A DNA stretch of 22,906 nucleotides from a virus. Shown here piece after piece: positions 11,616-21,401 of this stretch (position 1 is the stretch's first letter; every line of letters begins with the position of its first letter). The stretch covers positions 1 through 22,906 of the IMG/VR virus record IMGVR_UViG_3300035698_013918; one strand, given 5' to 3'. The position numbers and the translations under genes were made by a program. The notes beneath the pieces are model-generated. The model saw nothing but the letters and a program-made list of their open reading frames with translations, was not told the DNA's origin and searched no databases.

Positions 11616-12614
11616 ATGGATGCATTAGCAGCAGGCACCGTCCTCGATCAGATGGACGCAGTTACAAACGATTATTTCATGATGAATAACGGAAAAGCAG
11701 CTGATCTGTATTTTCAGACATCTTTTCTTCTCAATTACCTTTTAAAACAGCAGAAGGGTATTTTTAAGCGGCCTTCTGGCGGGCGCGATATCCGGGTACC
11801 GTTTCGGTATGACGGCAACGAATCCGGCTTTTACCAAAGAGGCGGAACGCTTAGTTCAACCAAGCGCGAGGCAATCACAGCGGTATTTTTCAAGTGGATT
11901 CATGCTTACGGTAACGGAACACTTCTCCGTGTTGATGATCTGGAAAACTCAGGTCCGGCAGCATGGATCAAATTAATCACAGAAGAAGCCGAAGGCGCTC
12001 AGAAGTCTGTAACCAAAACTCTGGCAGGTAGCTTGTACGACGCAGCCGGCGGCGGAGCAGGACGCCTGACGGGTCTTAGAAATCTGTGCAGCGCGACAAC
12101 CACGGAGCATTACGGAAGCCTGGCACAAGACGATGTTGAAGCAGCTGATGGCACAAAGCCATGGACGGGCGGCTTGACAACGACTTCCGAGGCAATCTCG
12201 CTTGACAAGATCCGGACCCTGAAATCCGGCGCTGATTATGGTGACGGCAAAAAGGAAGAGCCGGACCTGATTACAACGTCAAAGGTCCAGTTCAACATCA
12301 TCAAATCGATCCTGCAGGTTTCGCAGATGTTCACGACCAAGGATAGCGAGGCCGTTAAGGCCGGGTTTATCGGTGTTCATTTTGAAGGATCAGACATCTT
12401 TCCTGATCGTTACATGCCTGGTGATGGCTGGATGTTTGCACTTAACAGTGATCACATCGGTTTTGCGATCCACAAAAAAGGAATGTTCGTCAAAACTCCA
12501 TGGCGCGTTATCCAGGGATCCGCAGAAGATACAACCATGAAGATTCTGTTTGACGGGAATCTGGTTTGCGATAATCGCAGAGCGCACAAGGCACACAGCA
12601 ACCTGACATCGTAG
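11616..12614 (+). CDS. Major capsid protein
   Basis: The 332-aa protein starts at ATG 11616 behind GGAAGGAGCC, a strong site fitting high expression. It contains an N-terminal helical arm (LYFQTSFLLNYLLKQQ), then 'GGRDIRVPFRYD', a glycine-rich loop around 'GSLYDAAGGGAGRLTGLRNL', and a C-terminal domain with 'DLITTSKVQFNIIKSILQ', 'GVHFEGSDIFPDRYMPGDGW' and 'WRVIQGSAEDTTMKILFDGN'. This order matches HK97-fold capsid proteins of podovirus-like phages. It forms the icosahedral shell. The size is near the usual 330-350 aa. The stop codon lies inside a 15-bp tandem duplication. Confidence 0.88.
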   Translation: MDALAAGTVLDQMDAVTNDYFMMNNGKAADLYFQTSFLLNYLLKQQKGIFKRPSGGRDIRVPFRYDGNESGFYQRGGTLSSTKREAITAVFFKWIHAYGNGTLLRVDDLENSGPAAWIKLITEEAEGAQKSVTKTLAGSLYDAAGGGAGRLTGLRNLCSATTTEHYGSLAQDDVEAADGTKPWTGGLTTTSEAISLDKIRTLKSGADYGDGKKEEPDLITTSKVQFNIIKSILQVSQMFTTKDSEAVKAGFIGVHFEGSDIFPDRYMPGDGWMFALNSDHIGFAIHKKGMFVKTPWRVIQGSAEDTTMKILFDGNLVCDNRRAHKAHSNLTS

Positions 12615-14725: not shown

Positions 14726-15583
14726 ATGACCAGTAACGAGATATTGGCAGCTGTCAGAAGGGGTATCAGGGAAGCAGCGGCGGACACGGCGCTCCTGGTA
14801 AGTGATAACGACACTGCAATCGAAGTTGTAATGCTCCGGGCTGCCAATCTCTTGTGGCTGAAAATCAAAGAATGTGCGCCGGAATTTTGTATCCGGCGAA
14901 CATCCTTGACACGTACCAGCAATGTTTTTGCCTGGCCAACGTCATGTATGAGTATTCATAAAGTCTGGGATCTGGCCACCACGGCGGGCACTGTGACGGC
15001 TGCGTCAAATGCTTCTCCAATTGTGCTTACCATCGCGGACCACGGGTTTTCATCGAATCAGATTGTGACGGCTCATTCTGTTCTGGGCAATACAGCGGCA
15101 AACGGGACATGGGCAATTACTGTTGTCGATGATGATACTTTTTCCTTAACCGGATCCACCGGAAATGCCGCCTGGACTTCGGGCGGAAAAGTATTTCGCG
15201 AAACCCAGAACCTGACTCCGATGTCGCGCAAGAATTCGGCAGCTGCCTCCGGAGCGTCAACATACTGCTGGTTTCCAAGGGGAAAATACATTGTTGTTGA
15301 TGATCTGTCTTTTTCAAATGACCTGGTGGTTGAATACTATGCCCGGCCTGATTCGGTCACAGATATCCCGGCAGAATACCACGAAGGGATTGTTGCATTT
15401 AGTGTGATCGACCTGGTGAAAATTCCTACCCGAAAATCTGAAAATTATAATCATATCAAGCAGTCCCTGGAACACCATCAGTCAGCCTGGTCGATGGTTA
15501 TATCCGATATCCAGTCATCAATGCGGATGTCCAATGACGCGACACCCATGCCCCAGGGAAGTTTCTGGAATGGCATGATTTAA
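14726..15583 (+). CDS. Head-tail adaptor-like protein with an inserted FCCH-like domain
   Basis: The 285-aa product begins with a helical region (EILAAVRRGIREAAADTALL, MLRAANLLWLKIKECAPEF) and ends with 'VTDIPAEYHEGIVAFSVIDLVKI' and a helix (HIKQSLEHHQSAWSMVISDIQ). This is the arrangement of podovirus head-completion adaptors, and is shared with the next gene. Residues about 86-158 interrupt this layout with a beta-rich segment: SPIVLTIADHGFSS, 'GNTAANGTWAITVVDDDTFSLTGSTG' split over two strands, and WTSGGKV. The pattern is the small domain Pfam calls E1_FCCH, a common exchangeable module in phage surface proteins. The insert may present a binding face. Identification of both parts is from memory. 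Confidence 0.65.
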   Translation: MTSNEILAAVRRGIREAAADTALLVSDNDTAIEVVMLRAANLLWLKIKECAPEFCIRRTSLTRTSNVFAWPTSCMSIHKVWDLATTAGTVTAASNASPIVLTIADHGFSSNQIVTAHSVLGNTAANGTWAITVVDDDTFSLTGSTGNAAWTSGGKVFRETQNLTPMSRKNSAAASGASTYCWFPRGKYIVVDDLSFSNDLVVEYYARPDSVTDIPAEYHEGIVAFSVIDLVKIPTRKSENYNHIKQSLEHHQSAWSMVISDIQSSMRMSNDATPMPQGSFWNGMI

Positions 15584-15598
15584 TAAGGAGATACTGTC

Positions 15599-16243
15599 AT
15601 GATTGCAGATGAAGCAGCTGCCATCACCGAAGTACGCCGGATTATCAGTGAGGTATCCGAGGGATTTTACCTGACTGCTGATATTACGGCCTGGCTCCAG
15701 ATGGCCGTGATCGATATTACTACCAAAGCACATTGCTATGAGTTGTCTTATGATGTCACCCTTGTCGCAGACCAGTGGGCCTATACAACCCCGGCTTCGA
15801 TCGCAAGTACGGTAAAGGCGCTGGCTGCATTATACACATCCGGTACCACGACAGCGCGGGGACTGGTCAAGATTCTGGTAAAGAGTATTAACCACCAACC
15901 CCATCAGACTCCCGGACCAACTTTTTATTTTTCTCATTTCGAGAGTTCCATCATTGTCTGGCCACCTCCGACCGCTGCTGAAGTTACCGACACTGCCAAG
16001 ATCAAAATATATTCTGCCCAGGTAAGCGACGATATAACCAAACTGCCGGATTCATACCGGTTTCTGGCATGCAAATTTGCAGCCGGGATGGCATTTTCCA
16101 AAGATAAGAAGTTTGCAGCGTCCGGTTTCTGGATGGGTCAATATTACAATGATGTGCGGTTCCAGAGAGTTGACCTGCAAGAGCGCGGAGTTGATGCCCG
16201 CGAAATGTACGAAACGCCGGAGCGGGCGGTTATACGACAGTAA
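15599..16243 (+). CDS. Second head-tail adaptor-like protein
   Basis: ATG 15599 follows TAAGGAGATACTGTC. The 214-aa protein has an N-terminal helix pair (EVRRIISEVSEGFYL, DITAWLQMAVIDITTKAHCY), a beta section with DQWAYTTPASIAST and FYFSHFESSIIVWPPPT, and a C-terminal segment 'DDITKLPDSYRFLACKFAAGMAF' that parallels 'VTDIPAEYHEGIVAFSVIDL' of the preceding gene, then a long helix with FWMGQYYNDVRFQRV. It looks like a paralogue or partner of the preceding adaptor. In podoviruses such proteins sit between portal and nozzle. No enzymatic motif is seen. Confidence 0.65.
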   Translation: MIADEAAAITEVRRIISEVSEGFYLTADITAWLQMAVIDITTKAHCYELSYDVTLVADQWAYTTPASIASTVKALAALYTSGTTTARGLVKILVKSINHQPHQTPGPTFYFSHFESSIIVWPPPTAAEVTDTAKIKIYSAQVSDDITKLPDSYRFLACKFAAGMAFSKDKKFAASGFWMGQYYNDVRFQRVDLQERGVDAREMYETPERAVIRQ

Positions 16244-16258
16244 CAAGGGGATTTGCTG

Positions 16259-17170
16259 ATGTTTCCGGGACTGTTTGACCATCTCAAGCGGATTACGGGT
16301 GCAAACCCGAACGGACTGCCGTCACTTGGGCGCAGTTTGATGGATCTTATCGATCATCCTCCGTATGTGGATTCTCAGATCAATATTCCAGCCAGCGCTC
16401 AGGGCAGCGGGTATTCAGGATCAGGCGGCGGAATGGCCGTGATCGATTTTACCCAGAGTGCCGCATGCACGGGCGCTAGTTACGTTGCCCCGTCCTGGTC
16501 CGCCGCGAATCCTACCTCCCTGACCCGCAACACCTTTGATACAATTTCGATTGATGATGGCATTGGATCATTTACCTGGGTTATATCCGGCACCGGCTGG
16601 ACCCTGGATTATGCCTCCACGGCCGCCGGCGCCAATATTTTACGGGCAGGAGCAGGGGCCTGCGGATTAGCAAAAATTACTTGTACCGATGCTTGTGGGA
16701 ACATTGTTGTCGATTATGTTCAAGAAGATGGGCACTCAAGTTTTCAGGAGATAACCAGCAATCCTCAACATTGCTATATTACCGACACGACACAGCATCG
16801 CGACGAAGTAGTGTCCGGGTATAATGTCAGAACCGAAACAAGATATAGAATAAGGCTTTATATTAAAGACACCTGGTATTGGTCGAGCGGTTGCGGCAAT
16901 CTTAATCCACCGGCATGTGCTGCTGGATGGCCGAACAACGAGGGGTGTGACGGGCAGTGTGCCGATCCTGTGGGGTCCCCTTATTGTAATGCCAATTCGA
17001 CTCTGGCTTGTGACACGATGCTGAACTGTATGGAGATCCCTTTTTATGGCGAGGTGTGGGGTAGTGGCAACTGTTCTGGGTTTGTCGAAATTCCGGCTCT
17101 TCCAGGTTATTGTGGGCTTATGTGTGTTTGTTACGTGAGGGGGTATGCGGACGAATGGCTATGCAATTAA
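16259..17170 (+). CDS. Cysteine-rich virion protein with an Ig-like domain
   Basis: I chose ATG 16259 because AAGGGG lies eight bases before it; an in-frame TTG at 16253 is possible. The 303-aa protein has an N-terminal segment (LFDHLKRITGANPNGLPSL), then at about 60-155 an Ig-like beta domain with 'FTWVISGTGWTLDY' and 'CGLAKITCTDACGNIVVDYV', a pattern I associate with surface proteins. The C-terminal 91 residues (212-302) hold 12 of the 17 cysteines (GCGNLNPPAC, EGCDGQC, YCNANSTLACD, NCMEI, YCGLMCVCY). They have no simple CxxC zinc layout, so a disulfide-rich or metal-rich fold is likely. No family is recognised. It may be a tail appendage or a receptor-contact part. Its end overlaps the next gene by 16 bases. 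Confidence 0.65.
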   Translation: MFPGLFDHLKRITGANPNGLPSLGRSLMDLIDHPPYVDSQINIPASAQGSGYSGSGGGMAVIDFTQSAACTGASYVAPSWSAANPTSLTRNTFDTISIDDGIGSFTWVISGTGWTLDYASTAAGANILRAGAGACGLAKITCTDACGNIVVDYVQEDGHSSFQEITSNPQHCYITDTTQHRDEVVSGYNVRTETRYRIRLYIKDTWYWSSGCGNLNPPACAAGWPNNEGCDGQCADPVGSPYCNANSTLACDTMLNCMEIPFYGEVWGSGNCSGFVEIPALPGYCGLMCVCYVRGYADEWLCN

Positions 17171-17538
17171 ACGATAAAAAACGAGATATTATATTAAGGG
17201 CGGGTATCGGGATAGGCCGCATAAAAGACCATCTTGCCCAGGTTGCTTCTTGGAAAAAACGCGGAATCAGCAATGAAAATCTTTTGCAGTGGCTTGAAGA
17301 GAGAAAGGCTGAAGAAATTGCAGAGATTGAGCGGGTTAATAAGGATTTTGAAAAGTACCAGGCGATGCTGGACAGGGTTTCGCCGAAATGCTCAATCTGC
17401 GGGAAGCGGATGGATCTTGGTGATGTGAATGATCATCCTGCCAGGATGATAGACGAACCGGGTAAGTCGATGTGGGCATGCCCTGATGATTGCGAATATG
17501 CGGTTAATCAGCAATCCGCCAAAGAGATATTAAAATAA
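17155..17538 (+). CDS. Coiled-coil protein with C-terminal zinc cluster
   Basis: The start is ATG 17155 (or 17161), with GAGGGGG about 11 bases upstream; an upstream in-frame ATG would lie deep inside the preceding gene. The 127-aa product has a helical N-terminal half (IILRAGIGIGRIKDHLAQV), a charged helix (LLQWLEERKAEEIAEIERV) that may form a coiled coil, and a zinc cluster with Cys79-x2-Cys82 (CSIC) and Cys109-x3-Cys113 (CPDDC). I do not recognise the family. It overlaps genes on both sides, the latter as TAATG with the nozzle gene, so it is likely made in step with virion proteins and may be a chaperone or minor structural part. Confidence 0.65.
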   Translation: MAMQLNDKKRDIILRAGIGIGRIKDHLAQVASWKKRGISNENLLQWLEERKAEEIAEIERVNKDFEKYQAMLDRVSPKCSICGKRMDLGDVNDHPARMIDEPGKSMWACPDDCEYAVNQQSAKEILK

Positions 17539-20500
17539 TGCCATCGGAACAAATAAAAGCCCTGACAAACAGCCTGGTTTCAGGACCGATCGAAGCCGCG
17601 TTTTCGACACCGGACGAGCCCGGGCCTGTAACCGAGTATTCCCTGCCGGATAATATAGCCAAGGATCTGGTTACTGCGCCGGACGAGGAAGATCAGGCTA
17701 TAACGATTCCGTTTGACGGTCGCTGGATGCCTGGCGCGGATCCATTGGATGTGGGCATTAAAAACTATACGACTTTTAGAAACTGCCGTTATACCGGGCG
17801 CGGGGTTGAAGGTGATCCGTATCGGATAGAAGCTGTGCGCGGCTATGACAATATCAATACCACCGCATTGTCCGGCAATCAGATAAAGATCCGGTCCGGG
17901 ATTCAGCTGCGGACGCCGGCATATACTGTAAAATCAAATGTGCTTTGTCACACGTTATCATCCGGCACATATAACCGGATCATACGTCACCAGGGGGCTA
18001 TTGGGACGCTGGCCGTTGATTTTGACGGTGAGGCTACCTTTGAGCATTATGACCCTTCCACGGGCCTGAAAGGCCGCTTTGCACAGGCACCCGGCGGGAA
18101 TATTGCTTTTTGTAACGGGGAAGAATCCAAAATATACGGCGGTGATGAAATGCCGCCTGCGCGGGTGTTTTTAGTTGATGATTCGGATCTGACCAACCCG
18201 ATTGACTTCACCAATGCTGCCCGCACCAAGCTGGGATCTGCCGGTAATATCCTGCCGGTGGCCGGTGGGGTAGCGGCTAACCTGCTGCTGCATTGTAACG
18301 GTACGAACGGCAGCACGACAATAACGGATTCCGGGATAACCGGACATAGCCCGAATTCAAACGGCAACGCCAGATTGACGGTCGGTGATAGAAAGTTCGG
18401 CAGCGCAGCGCTGCATTGTAACCAGGTCATGGGAGCTGATATTTTAACGTCAGCATCGGATTGGGCAAGCCAATGCGGGGTTGGCTGGGCGCATGACGGC
18501 GGGACTGACGGCCAGTATAACTGTTACGGTACCCAGGGCGCTGCCAGCACTATCCAGGACGAAACAATCCTGACCGCCAGCACCCGGTATTATATTCGGT
18601 ACACGGTAGTAAGTTGCAGCGCCGGAAGTGTGACTGGGATTATCGGCAACAACACCGGTACCAGCCGCAGCGCTGTTGGTTCCTATGTGGATTATATTAT
18701 TTCTGATGCCGCCGCTGCCGGCTGGGACGATGGTGGTATTCAGGCTGATGTTGATTTCGTGGGTTCTGTTTCAGATGTGCAAATTATCAAAATGACCATG
18801 AGCTGGGTTAATGTGACGGATCATGCCGACTGGCATATGGCCGGCAACAATTTCTGTGTTGATTTCCAGTTTCGCCCTTTAACGTATTACGAGCTGGACG
18901 GAGCTGAAATCGAGCTGCCCCCAGGAAATGAAGTCGGCCTGTTTGGCCTGTGGAAAGACGCCAGCAACCATATTGCCATTACCCTGTACCGACATGAAGA
19001 CGCAACCGAGTGGCTGGAAGGCTACTATATCAAGGTGTACTTAAACGGCAACGTGATATTCAATTTAAACCCGCTGGAGTTTTATTACCACAAAATTAAC
19101 CATCTGTGCCTGATGCGCGGCTTTGCCGGGGGTGCCGATACCTGGGCGCTGCTTTTAAACGGCGGCAGCACATCCGGTACCGGTACGTCAAATACACAAT
19201 TCACGGATGATGGCATGGTCAGGTGCCATGCAACCAATTCTGTGTCTGATACATGGGATGATTATACAGCGGATTTGATGATCGGGATGGCAAGAGCAAC
19301 CGGCGGGGTATGGCTGTATTTTGACGGAATAATTGACGAATTGCGGGTAATCAAGGGGTCAACTCCGTGGACGACGATATTTACACCGCCGACCGCAGCA
19401 TACAATGACAAAAACTACTGGGCCGTATTTACCACCCGGCCGATTGAGGCAATTAATTATTATATTGCCAATGCCAACAACCAGACATCGGAAATGACCG
19501 GCGGGGTATGGACCGGGGGCGATTTTTCCGATCTGACAATAACCGACGGCAGCGCTGATGGTGGAATTTCTTTAGCTGTTGACGGGCAGGCGTCTTTTGG
19601 TAGTACAGTTGGCCTGGCAAAGTTCTACCATTTTGAAGGGATGCACCTTTTTTGTTACCGCTTTGCAATCGATGCCGGGTCCGCTGATATAGCCTATATA
19701 ACGGTCAAGGCACCGCTTCAGCCAATGGTGGATGCCTGGGACGGGATTGGGCGGCAGTGTATCGGATTCCATGTCTGGCGAAATTCCGAAGGCAAGTTTG
19801 TCGACTACACGTTAGAAGTTAATTACAACAGTTATGCTGCTTCGGTTTCATCTGCATACAGCGCGATTTTAGACGGGTTGACAACCTCTGATTATATAAT
19901 TGCGATATTTGAAGAGCGGACATCTGGGATTAATATCAAGATGCTGGCGGAACACGAAAATAGTGAGACTGCCACGACAGCGATTGCTTTCTGGGACTCA
20001 ACCACATTTCAGACAGCGCAGAATGTTAATGACCGGACATCCGAGAGCGATGTGGCCCTGGCCAAAACCGGCCTTTTGTCTTTTACTTCTCCTGCTGTGA
20101 CCGAAGAAGCCCCATACACCGGCTTCAATGTGACCGGATTTGCTTACAGGATATCGTTTAGCGCAACTTTGTCCGGTACATATGAAGGCGAAACCTTAAA
20201 ACTTGATTTTATTACCGGGGTGCCGGCACCAAACACAGTGCTGCCGTTTGCGTTTCCAGTGCTTTACAAATCCCGGACATTTCTTTGTTGTTATGAAGAA
20301 GGCATGGAGGGCAACCGGGTTGATTACACTCCGCCGGATTCTCCGGATGTGTTCAATGGCCTGCAATCATCGATGAACGGGCTGCAATCCCTGTATTTCG
20401 GGGATGTGACCAAGTTGACCTGCGGGGTGCAGATATACAATCAGTTTGGCAGTAATTTCTATGTAACCTGCCTGTTTCTCAAAAAAGACCAGTCGCTGAT

Positions 20501-21401
20501 GTTGTACGGAGACAGCCCGGCCAATTACCGGATATTTCCACTTTCAACCACAATAGGCTGCCCGGCGCCGGACACTTTGGATACGGTCGAATTCGGCTAC
20601 CAGCAAAGCGAGGAAGGCAGCGCCCGCAATATCGCAATATTTCTTTCATTTTCCGGACCGGTCTTTTTCGACGGGACAATCTTTTCTGAAATTCCAGGAA
20701 TTGAACATTATTTCGATCCGGATGATTCAGATTATATTGATCCTTCTGTAATTCACCTGGCTCAAGGCAAGTTTGACCGACGAAATAAGGCGTTTCATTT
20801 TCTTTTGCCCTGCGGATCTGACGCAACCACCAATACCCGGGTGAACACATGGGTATTTTATGACTTAACGCGAAAACGCTGGCACGAAGTTTATATTGAC
20901 GCCAGTTACGGGACCACTTTTCCGCAAACGCTGATTCAGGTCTGGGATGATTACGGGTTTCAGCATTTATACGGGACCACGGATTCCGGGCATATGATGA
21001 TCCTGGACTATGGAACAAAGTGGGCACATCCTGCCGGGGATATCGGCATTACCCAGACGATTGAAACCGGGGATTTCATGTTGTCGGACGGGATCTGGTT
21101 TTCCACTTTGCTGCGCGGATTTAAAATGATCTGGCAGAAAATTACAGAAACAGCGTCTGTGGTTTTGACGCATACGCCGGAAACAACAACGGCCAACACT
21201 GCAACTGTATTGACGCAATCTTTAAAGGTTGGGGTCGCGACACAGCGGATAGTTAAGGCATATACCGATATTAATAAGGAAGCATTGATTCACAGGCTGA
21301 AATGGGTAGTTACGTTGAGTACAACGGCAAAAGGCTGGCGACCTATCGCATGGGCAATAAAATTCAGGAAGGTGCGCATTGACGAAGAAACGGACACCTG
21401 A
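17538..21401 (+). CDS. Tail nozzle-like protein with nested LamG-like insertion, 1287 aa
   Basis: ATG 17538 overlaps the preceding TAA. Residues 35-235 and roughly 830-1280 show the beta-propeller pattern of podovirus tail nozzle or DNA-stabilisation proteins (P22 gp10/T7 gp12 type): FRNCRYTGRGVEGDPYRIEAV, NRVDYTPPDSPDVFNG, SLYFGDVTKLTC, 'IFPLSTTIGCPAPDTL', SGPVFFDGTIF, 'KFDRRNKAFHFLLP' and WVFYDLTRKRWHEVY. From about 249, LLLHCNGTNGSTTITDSG begins a LamG/concanavalin-like domain that resumes near 418 and ends by about 625 (LYFDGIIDELRVIKG). Between them, at about 300-417, lies another beta segment (TRYYIRYTVVSCSAGSVTG and 'GGIQADVDFVGSVSDVQI'), like a carbohydrate-binding module. Residues 626-830 are beta-rich and unassigned. 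The nozzle closes the tail. The inserted lectin-like parts may contact host glycans. Usual nozzles are much shorter. Confidence 0.75.
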   Translation: MPSEQIKALTNSLVSGPIEAAFSTPDEPGPVTEYSLPDNIAKDLVTAPDEEDQAITIPFDGRWMPGADPLDVGIKNYTTFRNCRYTGRGVEGDPYRIEAVRGYDNINTTALSGNQIKIRSGIQLRTPAYTVKSNVLCHTLSSGTYNRIIRHQGAIGTLAVDFDGEATFEHYDPSTGLKGRFAQAPGGNIAFCNGEESKIYGGDEMPPARVFLVDDSDLTNPIDFTNAARTKLGSAGNILPVAGGVAANLLLHCNGTNGSTTITDSGITGHSPNSNGNARLTVGDRKFGSAALHCNQVMGADILTSASDWASQCGVGWAHDGGTDGQYNCYGTQGAASTIQDETILTASTRYYIRYTVVSCSAGSVTGIIGNNTGTSRSAVGSYVDYIISDAAAAGWDDGGIQADVDFVGSVSDVQIIKMTMSWVNVTDHADWHMAGNNFCVDFQFRPLTYYELDGAEIELPPGNEVGLFGLWKDASNHIAITLYRHEDATEWLEGYYIKVYLNGNVIFNLNPLEFYYHKINHLCLMRGFAGGADTWALLLNGGSTSGTGTSNTQFTDDGMVRCHATNSVSDTWDDYTADLMIGMARATGGVWLYFDGIIDELRVIKGSTPWTTIFTPPTAAYNDKNYWAVFTTRPIEAINYYIANANNQTSEMTGGVWTGGDFSDLTITDGSADGGISLAVDGQASFGSTVGLAKFYHFEGMHLFCYRFAIDAGSADIAYITVKAPLQPMVDAWDGIGRQCIGFHVWRNSEGKFVDYTLEVNYNSYAASVSSAYSAILDGLTTSDYIIAIFEERTSGINIKMLAEHENSETATTAIAFWDSTTFQTAQNVNDRTSESDVALAKTGLLSFTSPAVTEEAPYTGFNVTGFAYRISFSATLSGTYEGETLKLDFITGVPAPNTVLPFAFPVLYKSRTFLCCYEEGMEGNRVDYTPPDSPDVFNGLQSSMNGLQSLYFGDVTKLTCGVQIYNQFGSNFYVTCLFLKKDQSLMLYGDSPANYRIFPLSTTIGCPAPDTLDTVEFGYQQSEEGSARNIAIFLSFSGPVFFDGTIFSEIPGIEHYFDPDDSDYIDPSVIHLAQGKFDRRNKAFHFLLPCGSDATTNTRVNTWVFYDLTRKRWHEVYIDASYGTTFPQTLIQVWDDYGFQHLYGTTDSGHMMILDYGTKWAHPAGDIGITQTIETGDFMLSDGIWFSTLLRGFKMIWQKITETASVVLTHTPETTTANTATVLTQSLKVGVATQRIVKAYTDINKEALIHRLKWVVTLSTTAKGWRPIAWAIKFRKVRIDEETDT

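Follow-up and report, generated by a model that had tools for sequence, protein, structure and literature searches.

Here, a tail nozzle protein is identified in which a LamG-like domain is inserted into the nozzle core and is itself split by a CBM-like beta-sandwich, and the same arrangement of module within module recurs among related nozzles. Both this two-level anatomy and its recurrence are considered very likely. The window, i.e. the whole stretch of DNA analysed, is the record of an uncultured virus with 22,906 nucleotides (22.9 kb; IMG/VR IMGVR_UViG_3300035698_013918), and a single open frame on the plus strand (17538..21401; 1287 aa) holds the whole feature.

Podophage nozzles of the P22 gp10 and SU10 gp17 type are seven-bladed beta-propellers with a platform. 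On its predicted fold and gene order the product of this frame is a short-tailed phage nozzle, as the initial annotation had proposed. The AF2 model of the whole protein, which spans residues 57-1256 and omits 1-56 and 1257-1287, reached a pLDDT of 76.0 and a pTM of 0.69 with 40 rows, and the best fold matches of its core are the Pa223 nozzle (Z 24.2), VP1 (24.1) and SU10 gp17 (23.1); further matches include P22 gp10 (Z 22.8) and the crAss001 muzzle (22.6), with 400-450 residues aligned. The 13 top-ranked matches, with Z between 21.7 and 24.2, are without exception solved nozzles or muzzles of phages; ordinary propellers come next, with Z up to 21.0. The propeller with its platform is recognised here through the matches to solved nozzles rather than by counting blades in the coordinates. 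By sequence, no known nozzle was matched in Pfam, PHROGs or the PDB, and a profile of the nozzle core retrieved no solved nozzle, only chance matches; the SU10 and T7 nozzles likewise have no mutual sequence kinship (PMC9509320). The N-terminal nozzle core occupies residues 57-243 (17706..18266, plus strand) and in relatives without LamG joins the C-terminal core directly. The latter (residues 637-1287; 19446..21398, plus strand; alignment A3), with AF2 blocks mostly above 85, probably comprises the Ig-like nozzle domains, the remaining propeller blades and the platform, the domain names being taken from SU10.

Terminase, portal, major head protein (phrog_9953) and an SU10-type adaptor (SU10_adaptor, PF24175, E 9.4e-13; 15599..16243, plus strand) are encoded ahead of the nozzle, which thus lies beside an adaptor in a structural module. 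In 70 loci, too, the nozzle is preceded by an adaptor homologue; the set comprises 102 loci with a nozzle match, eight of them (L113-L115, L124, L133-L136) fetched because of their CBM-like modules. The gene immediately before the adaptor (14726-15583) weakly resembles SU10_adaptor (0.0039) and includes a stretch similar to E1_FCCH (5.8e-4), and its protein has a homologue in 17 loci, mostly just upstream of the adaptor. Between adaptor and nozzle, 16253-17170 encodes a protein with a strikingly cysteine-rich C-terminal half and one homologue (L095). The phage record nearest to the major head protein (11616-12614) is Methanosarcina virus MetMV, at 27%, which is also matched by the portal and two other genes, possibly a hint of an archaeal or syntrophic setting.

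Whole-protein searches of Pfam, PHROGs, IMG/VR (exact peptides), the PDB and phage records returned nothing, and a capsid-based search found no relative. The family was opened instead by a degenerate DNA pattern from one nozzle motif of the window, a motif that is presumably frequent in phage sequences, and a second scan used two patterns from alignment A4; the same scan of genome contigs yielded two MAG contigs. Together, the motif and alignment searches covered IMG/VR and GTDB contigs. In the fetched loci 97 ORFs matched the nozzle (phmmer), 72 of them near full length, and a cut at 95% identity left a non-redundant set of 53 relatives from metagenomic viruses. The census of inserts, from which 25 partial ORFs were excluded, took in 54 nozzle rows and inserts of at least 40 residues.

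The outer insertion is a LamG domain in two parts. The first, residues 245-294 (18270..18419, plus strand), covers positions 7-55 of the LamG profile and the second, residues 419-636 (18792..19445, plus strand), covers positions 58-222 and includes the closing GIIDELRVIKG strand. In PHROGs both halves match phrog_24074, in order (1.2e-6 and 8e-4). The window domain is recognised chiefly via its relatives: against Pfam Laminin_G_3 it scores 14.0 bits (E 0.055), under the cut-off of 27.6 bits, and it is not among the 12 of 14 aligned LamG rows that match this family at E 0.01, while a profile built from 10 uninterrupted nozzle LamGs finds it with 128.9 bits. The fold is a jelly roll of the CBM40/pentraxin type, and the matches of the whole model include the CBM40 structure 2v73 (2.9e-4). 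The initial annotation had placed the domain at 18282-19412 (residues 249-625) and had proposed comparison with nozzles lacking the insertion; LamG is indeed there, but such relatives set wider boundaries, at about residues 245-636 (nt 18270-19445). Six of them (L010, L015, L037, L040, L047 and L019) align from residues 40-57 to 226-246 and resume straight at 619-629; in the alignment with L010, for example, the core runs on unbroken across the place of window residues about 240-626.

The LamG profile falls on the window in three pieces, positions 7-55 at residues 248-296, 58-174 at 422-553 and 157-222 at 552-623. The pieces are collinear, so that some 125 residues interrupt the domain between positions 55 and 58, in a loop that corresponds to the FDG/GDY loop of the window LamG. 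When the flanks were joined in silico the LamG score rose from 128.9 to 145.3 bits, whereas none of 20 equally long deletions made elsewhere as controls scored above 93.0. A tandem arrangement of LamG and CBM-like module is ruled out, because beyond the insert the LamG model continues almost where it left off. Two relatives, L045 and L099, cover the LamG model from 1 to 222 without a break, and since LamG is absent in some relatives and uninterrupted in others, both empty sites are seen. The suggestion in the initial annotation of a LamG-like domain split by a second beta module is thereby borne out, the profile search that it had proposed for each segment giving collinear LamG pieces and, for the inner module, a family of its own.

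This inner module occupies residues 295-418 (18420..18791, plus strand), within the LamG loop. An independent profile of CBM-like modules, collected by a motif pattern, matches residues 300-417 (47.9 bits, E 7e-14 with Z=1000), exactly the span 18435-18788 that had been singled out beforehand. When this motif is masked out of the window sequence, a single relative, L113, still matches (E 4.8e-5) and the match of the 34-module profile falls to 0.004. The module thus belongs to a family of CBM-like sandwiches present in virus contigs. Modelled alone (A10, 20 rows), it reached a pLDDT of 84.3 and a pTM of 0.78; its top Foldseek matches are CBMs (4qpw, 1.7e-4), and comparison with CBM16 gave Z 11.3 and an rmsd of 3.2 over 123 aligned residues. 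Eph receptor domains also rank among its top fold matches, and toxin and Eph receptor binding domains appear in the jelly-roll fold lists, where the fold is shared and nothing more. PF02018 (CBM_4_9) is reached by two of 20 CBM-like rows, at best with 0.012, and not by the window. By fold the predicted module is a sandwich of the CBM4_9/CBM16 type, with a putative role in carbohydrate binding. Its base composition carries no sign of recent entry (GC 0.532, against 0.501 with an sd of 0.028 for windows of the same length), and its junctions share no common word of 7-12 bases. A module in the same LamG loop was found in none of the 53 relatives, an absence that is weak evidence. Another phage protein (L114:2237-5704, 1156 aa) has two or three modules of this CBM-like family in a row.

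In the model of the whole protein residues 281-416 are disordered (pLDDT <50), because alignment rows for the inner module are absent there. The nested arrangement consequently rests on sequence comparison, and the closed nested fold is contained in no single model. Alignments A5, A6 and A7, to which insert-only rows had been added, misplaced rows of the LamG or of the insert and were not used, so the inner module was folded alone (A10) and the whole protein without rows for it (A9).

Internal inserts of at least 60 residues are carried by 33 of the 54 nozzles, at 12 positions; SU10 gp17 and the crAss001 muzzle carry inserts too, so the premise of the initial annotation that nozzles are usually unadorned has to be given up. 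The most used site lies after residue 243 and is filled in 19 of the 54 nozzles (13 at the next site). LamG is the occupant in 15 of these 19, uninterrupted in 10 (217-232 aa) and longer in five (379-438 aa), and the other four nozzles hold an F5/8C-like domain (L012) or unclassified segments (L061, L105, L110). Of the five nested LamGs, two contain a CBM-like sandwich, each in a different loop, one an F5/8C-like domain and two a second LamG. Outside the window the LamG model is interrupted near position 190 in three nozzles: by an F5/8C domain in L013 (positions 1-193 at residues 208-407, PF00754 at 437-545 with 4.2e-6, positions 189-222 at 568-612) and by a second LamG in L069 (1-189 at 289-475, second LamG 480-661, 171-222 at 677-725) and L079 (1-193 at 221-414, second LamG 410-588, 194-221 at 629-656). 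In L030 the break is near position 106 (1-106 at 284-382); a CBM-like module follows at 447-556, and a second, weak LamG match (38-222, 5e-7) extends to residue 692. On a tree of 841 core columns, with the hot spot excluded, the nested states require five changes and the presence of LamG seven. Holders of LamG cluster relative to the four other occupants no more strongly than by chance (158 of 500 shuffles as low).

The sister nozzles L023, L012 and L013, whose cores are 60-67% identical, form a series in which the site is empty, holds a bare F5/8C-like module, or holds the same module within a LamG; the module is 62% identical over 167 residues between L012 and L013. L079 and L099 (cores 56% identical) differ by the inner LamG. 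Unclassified modules occupy other insertion sites, near window residue 1093 in L019, L030 and L046, near 164 in L033, L045, L029 and L075, and near 217 in 13 nozzles. The nozzle at L079:5920-10461 carries a third LamG at its C-terminus, besides the nested pair at the hot spot.

The initial annotation had set the LamG within the propeller. Its insertion in the nozzle is upheld, and by analogy with SU10 gp17, in which four Ig-like domains lie between propeller blades 2 and 3 (PMC9509320), the hot spot more likely lies where the Ig-like nozzle domains begin than inside a blade of the propeller. The nozzle is presumably a hexamer under the adaptor, and the site that separates the N-terminal core from the Ig-like nozzle domains would be a permissive one at the tip, marking the start of the distal nozzle domains, where the tail faces the cell. 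Six copies with two modules each could then display up to twelve lectin-type modules per virion. These may bind polysaccharide or other host-surface glycans, if exposed as their position suggests, and so hold the tail before the nozzle opens. The pattern among relatives suggests that in-frame recombination adds and removes modules at insert-tolerant loops; LamG itself offers such loops, which would explain the repeated doll-in-doll arrangements.

From fold and position, adhesion to host-surface glycans is the most likely use of the LamG and CBM-type modules, and we lean towards it with some reserve; a glycan-binding role is plausible from the predicted folds. The main rival, to which a clearly smaller likelihood is given, is that the modules are structural and bind no glycan, stabilising the tail tip or docking fibres or a needle as in SU10. 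In that phage the delivery channel is built through a rearrangement of the inserted Ig-like nozzle domains, and the short fibres dock to a loop (PMC9509320). Some jelly rolls are protein-binding or structural domains, Eph receptor domains being among the top fold matches, and with the hot spot empty in 35 of the 54 nozzles an occupant is dispensable for the core. However, a single site with unrelated occupants (LamG, CBM-like, F5/8C-like) is hard to reconcile with a conserved docking contact, and all of the named occupants share folds that are best known from glycan-binding modules.

Neutral traffic, in which modules drift by recombination through insert-tolerant loops with little effect, would account for the many positions used and for near relatives that differ by gain or loss (L012, L013 and L023; L079 and L099), but every insert that could be classified is a complete fold of one of a few adhesive types and a single site is favoured over the rest, which makes this reading improbable. 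That the gene encodes a tail fibre or spike might be thought of since LamG and CBM modules are common in phage fibres; the core model matches solved nozzles best, however, and an adaptor is encoded upstream, and a fibre is therefore rejected as exceedingly improbable.

The nozzle could further be pictured as a two-tier exchangeable adhesin, in which a fixed tail-closing core offers a slot for lectin-type shells that have a second slot of their own, and attachment evolves in the channel protein and not only in fibres; this extension is speculative and is held to be rather unlikely. The clean sequence series of empty site, single module and module within module makes insertion rules readable in a natural family, and suggests that host attachment may evolve in a tail-closing protein. 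Should binding be shown, nozzles would join the receptor-binding proteins; the nozzle (TTPB) of the Vibrio OWB podophage is reported to bind a host membrane protein (PMC7241545).

Among known systems SU10 gp17 (PDB 7z47) is like the window protein in its platform, beta-propeller and inserted domains at the tail tip, with 449 residues aligned, and in an adaptor of the same Pfam family upstream. Its inserts differ, being four Ig-like domains and a fibre dock, and LamG, CBM or nesting is not described in the sections seen of its report. P22 gp10 and T7 gp12 (Foldseek 1.1e-3 for T7 gp12) share the core fold, in chains of 471 and 789 residues as against 1287 for the window nozzle, and we know of no LamG or CBM-type inserts in either. 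The sialidase LamG/CBM40 and the CBM16/CBM4_9 modules have the same folds as the outer and inner modules; there they are modules of enzymes, whereas in the window a phage nozzle holds them nested, the inner within the outer. The crAss001 muzzle gp44 (PDB 7qol) resembles the window protein in its propeller, inserted domains and nesting, with two Ig-like domains and a large domain inserted in loops of one of them; its authors note that muzzle length varies by insertion and suggest cell contact (PMC10172136). The nested part there is a 'crass fold', reportedly without known relatives (same source), whereas the nested parts of the window family are exchangeable lectin/CBM-type folds that are missing from most members. 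No account of LamG or CBM modules in a nozzle was found in the open-access literature searched. Inserted domains in nozzles, and nested ones in the crAss001 muzzle, are already known; as far as searched, the novelty lies in a hot spot whose occupants are recognisable, exchangeable folds of the lectin/CBM type, with nesting in several lineages and at three different loops of the LamG.
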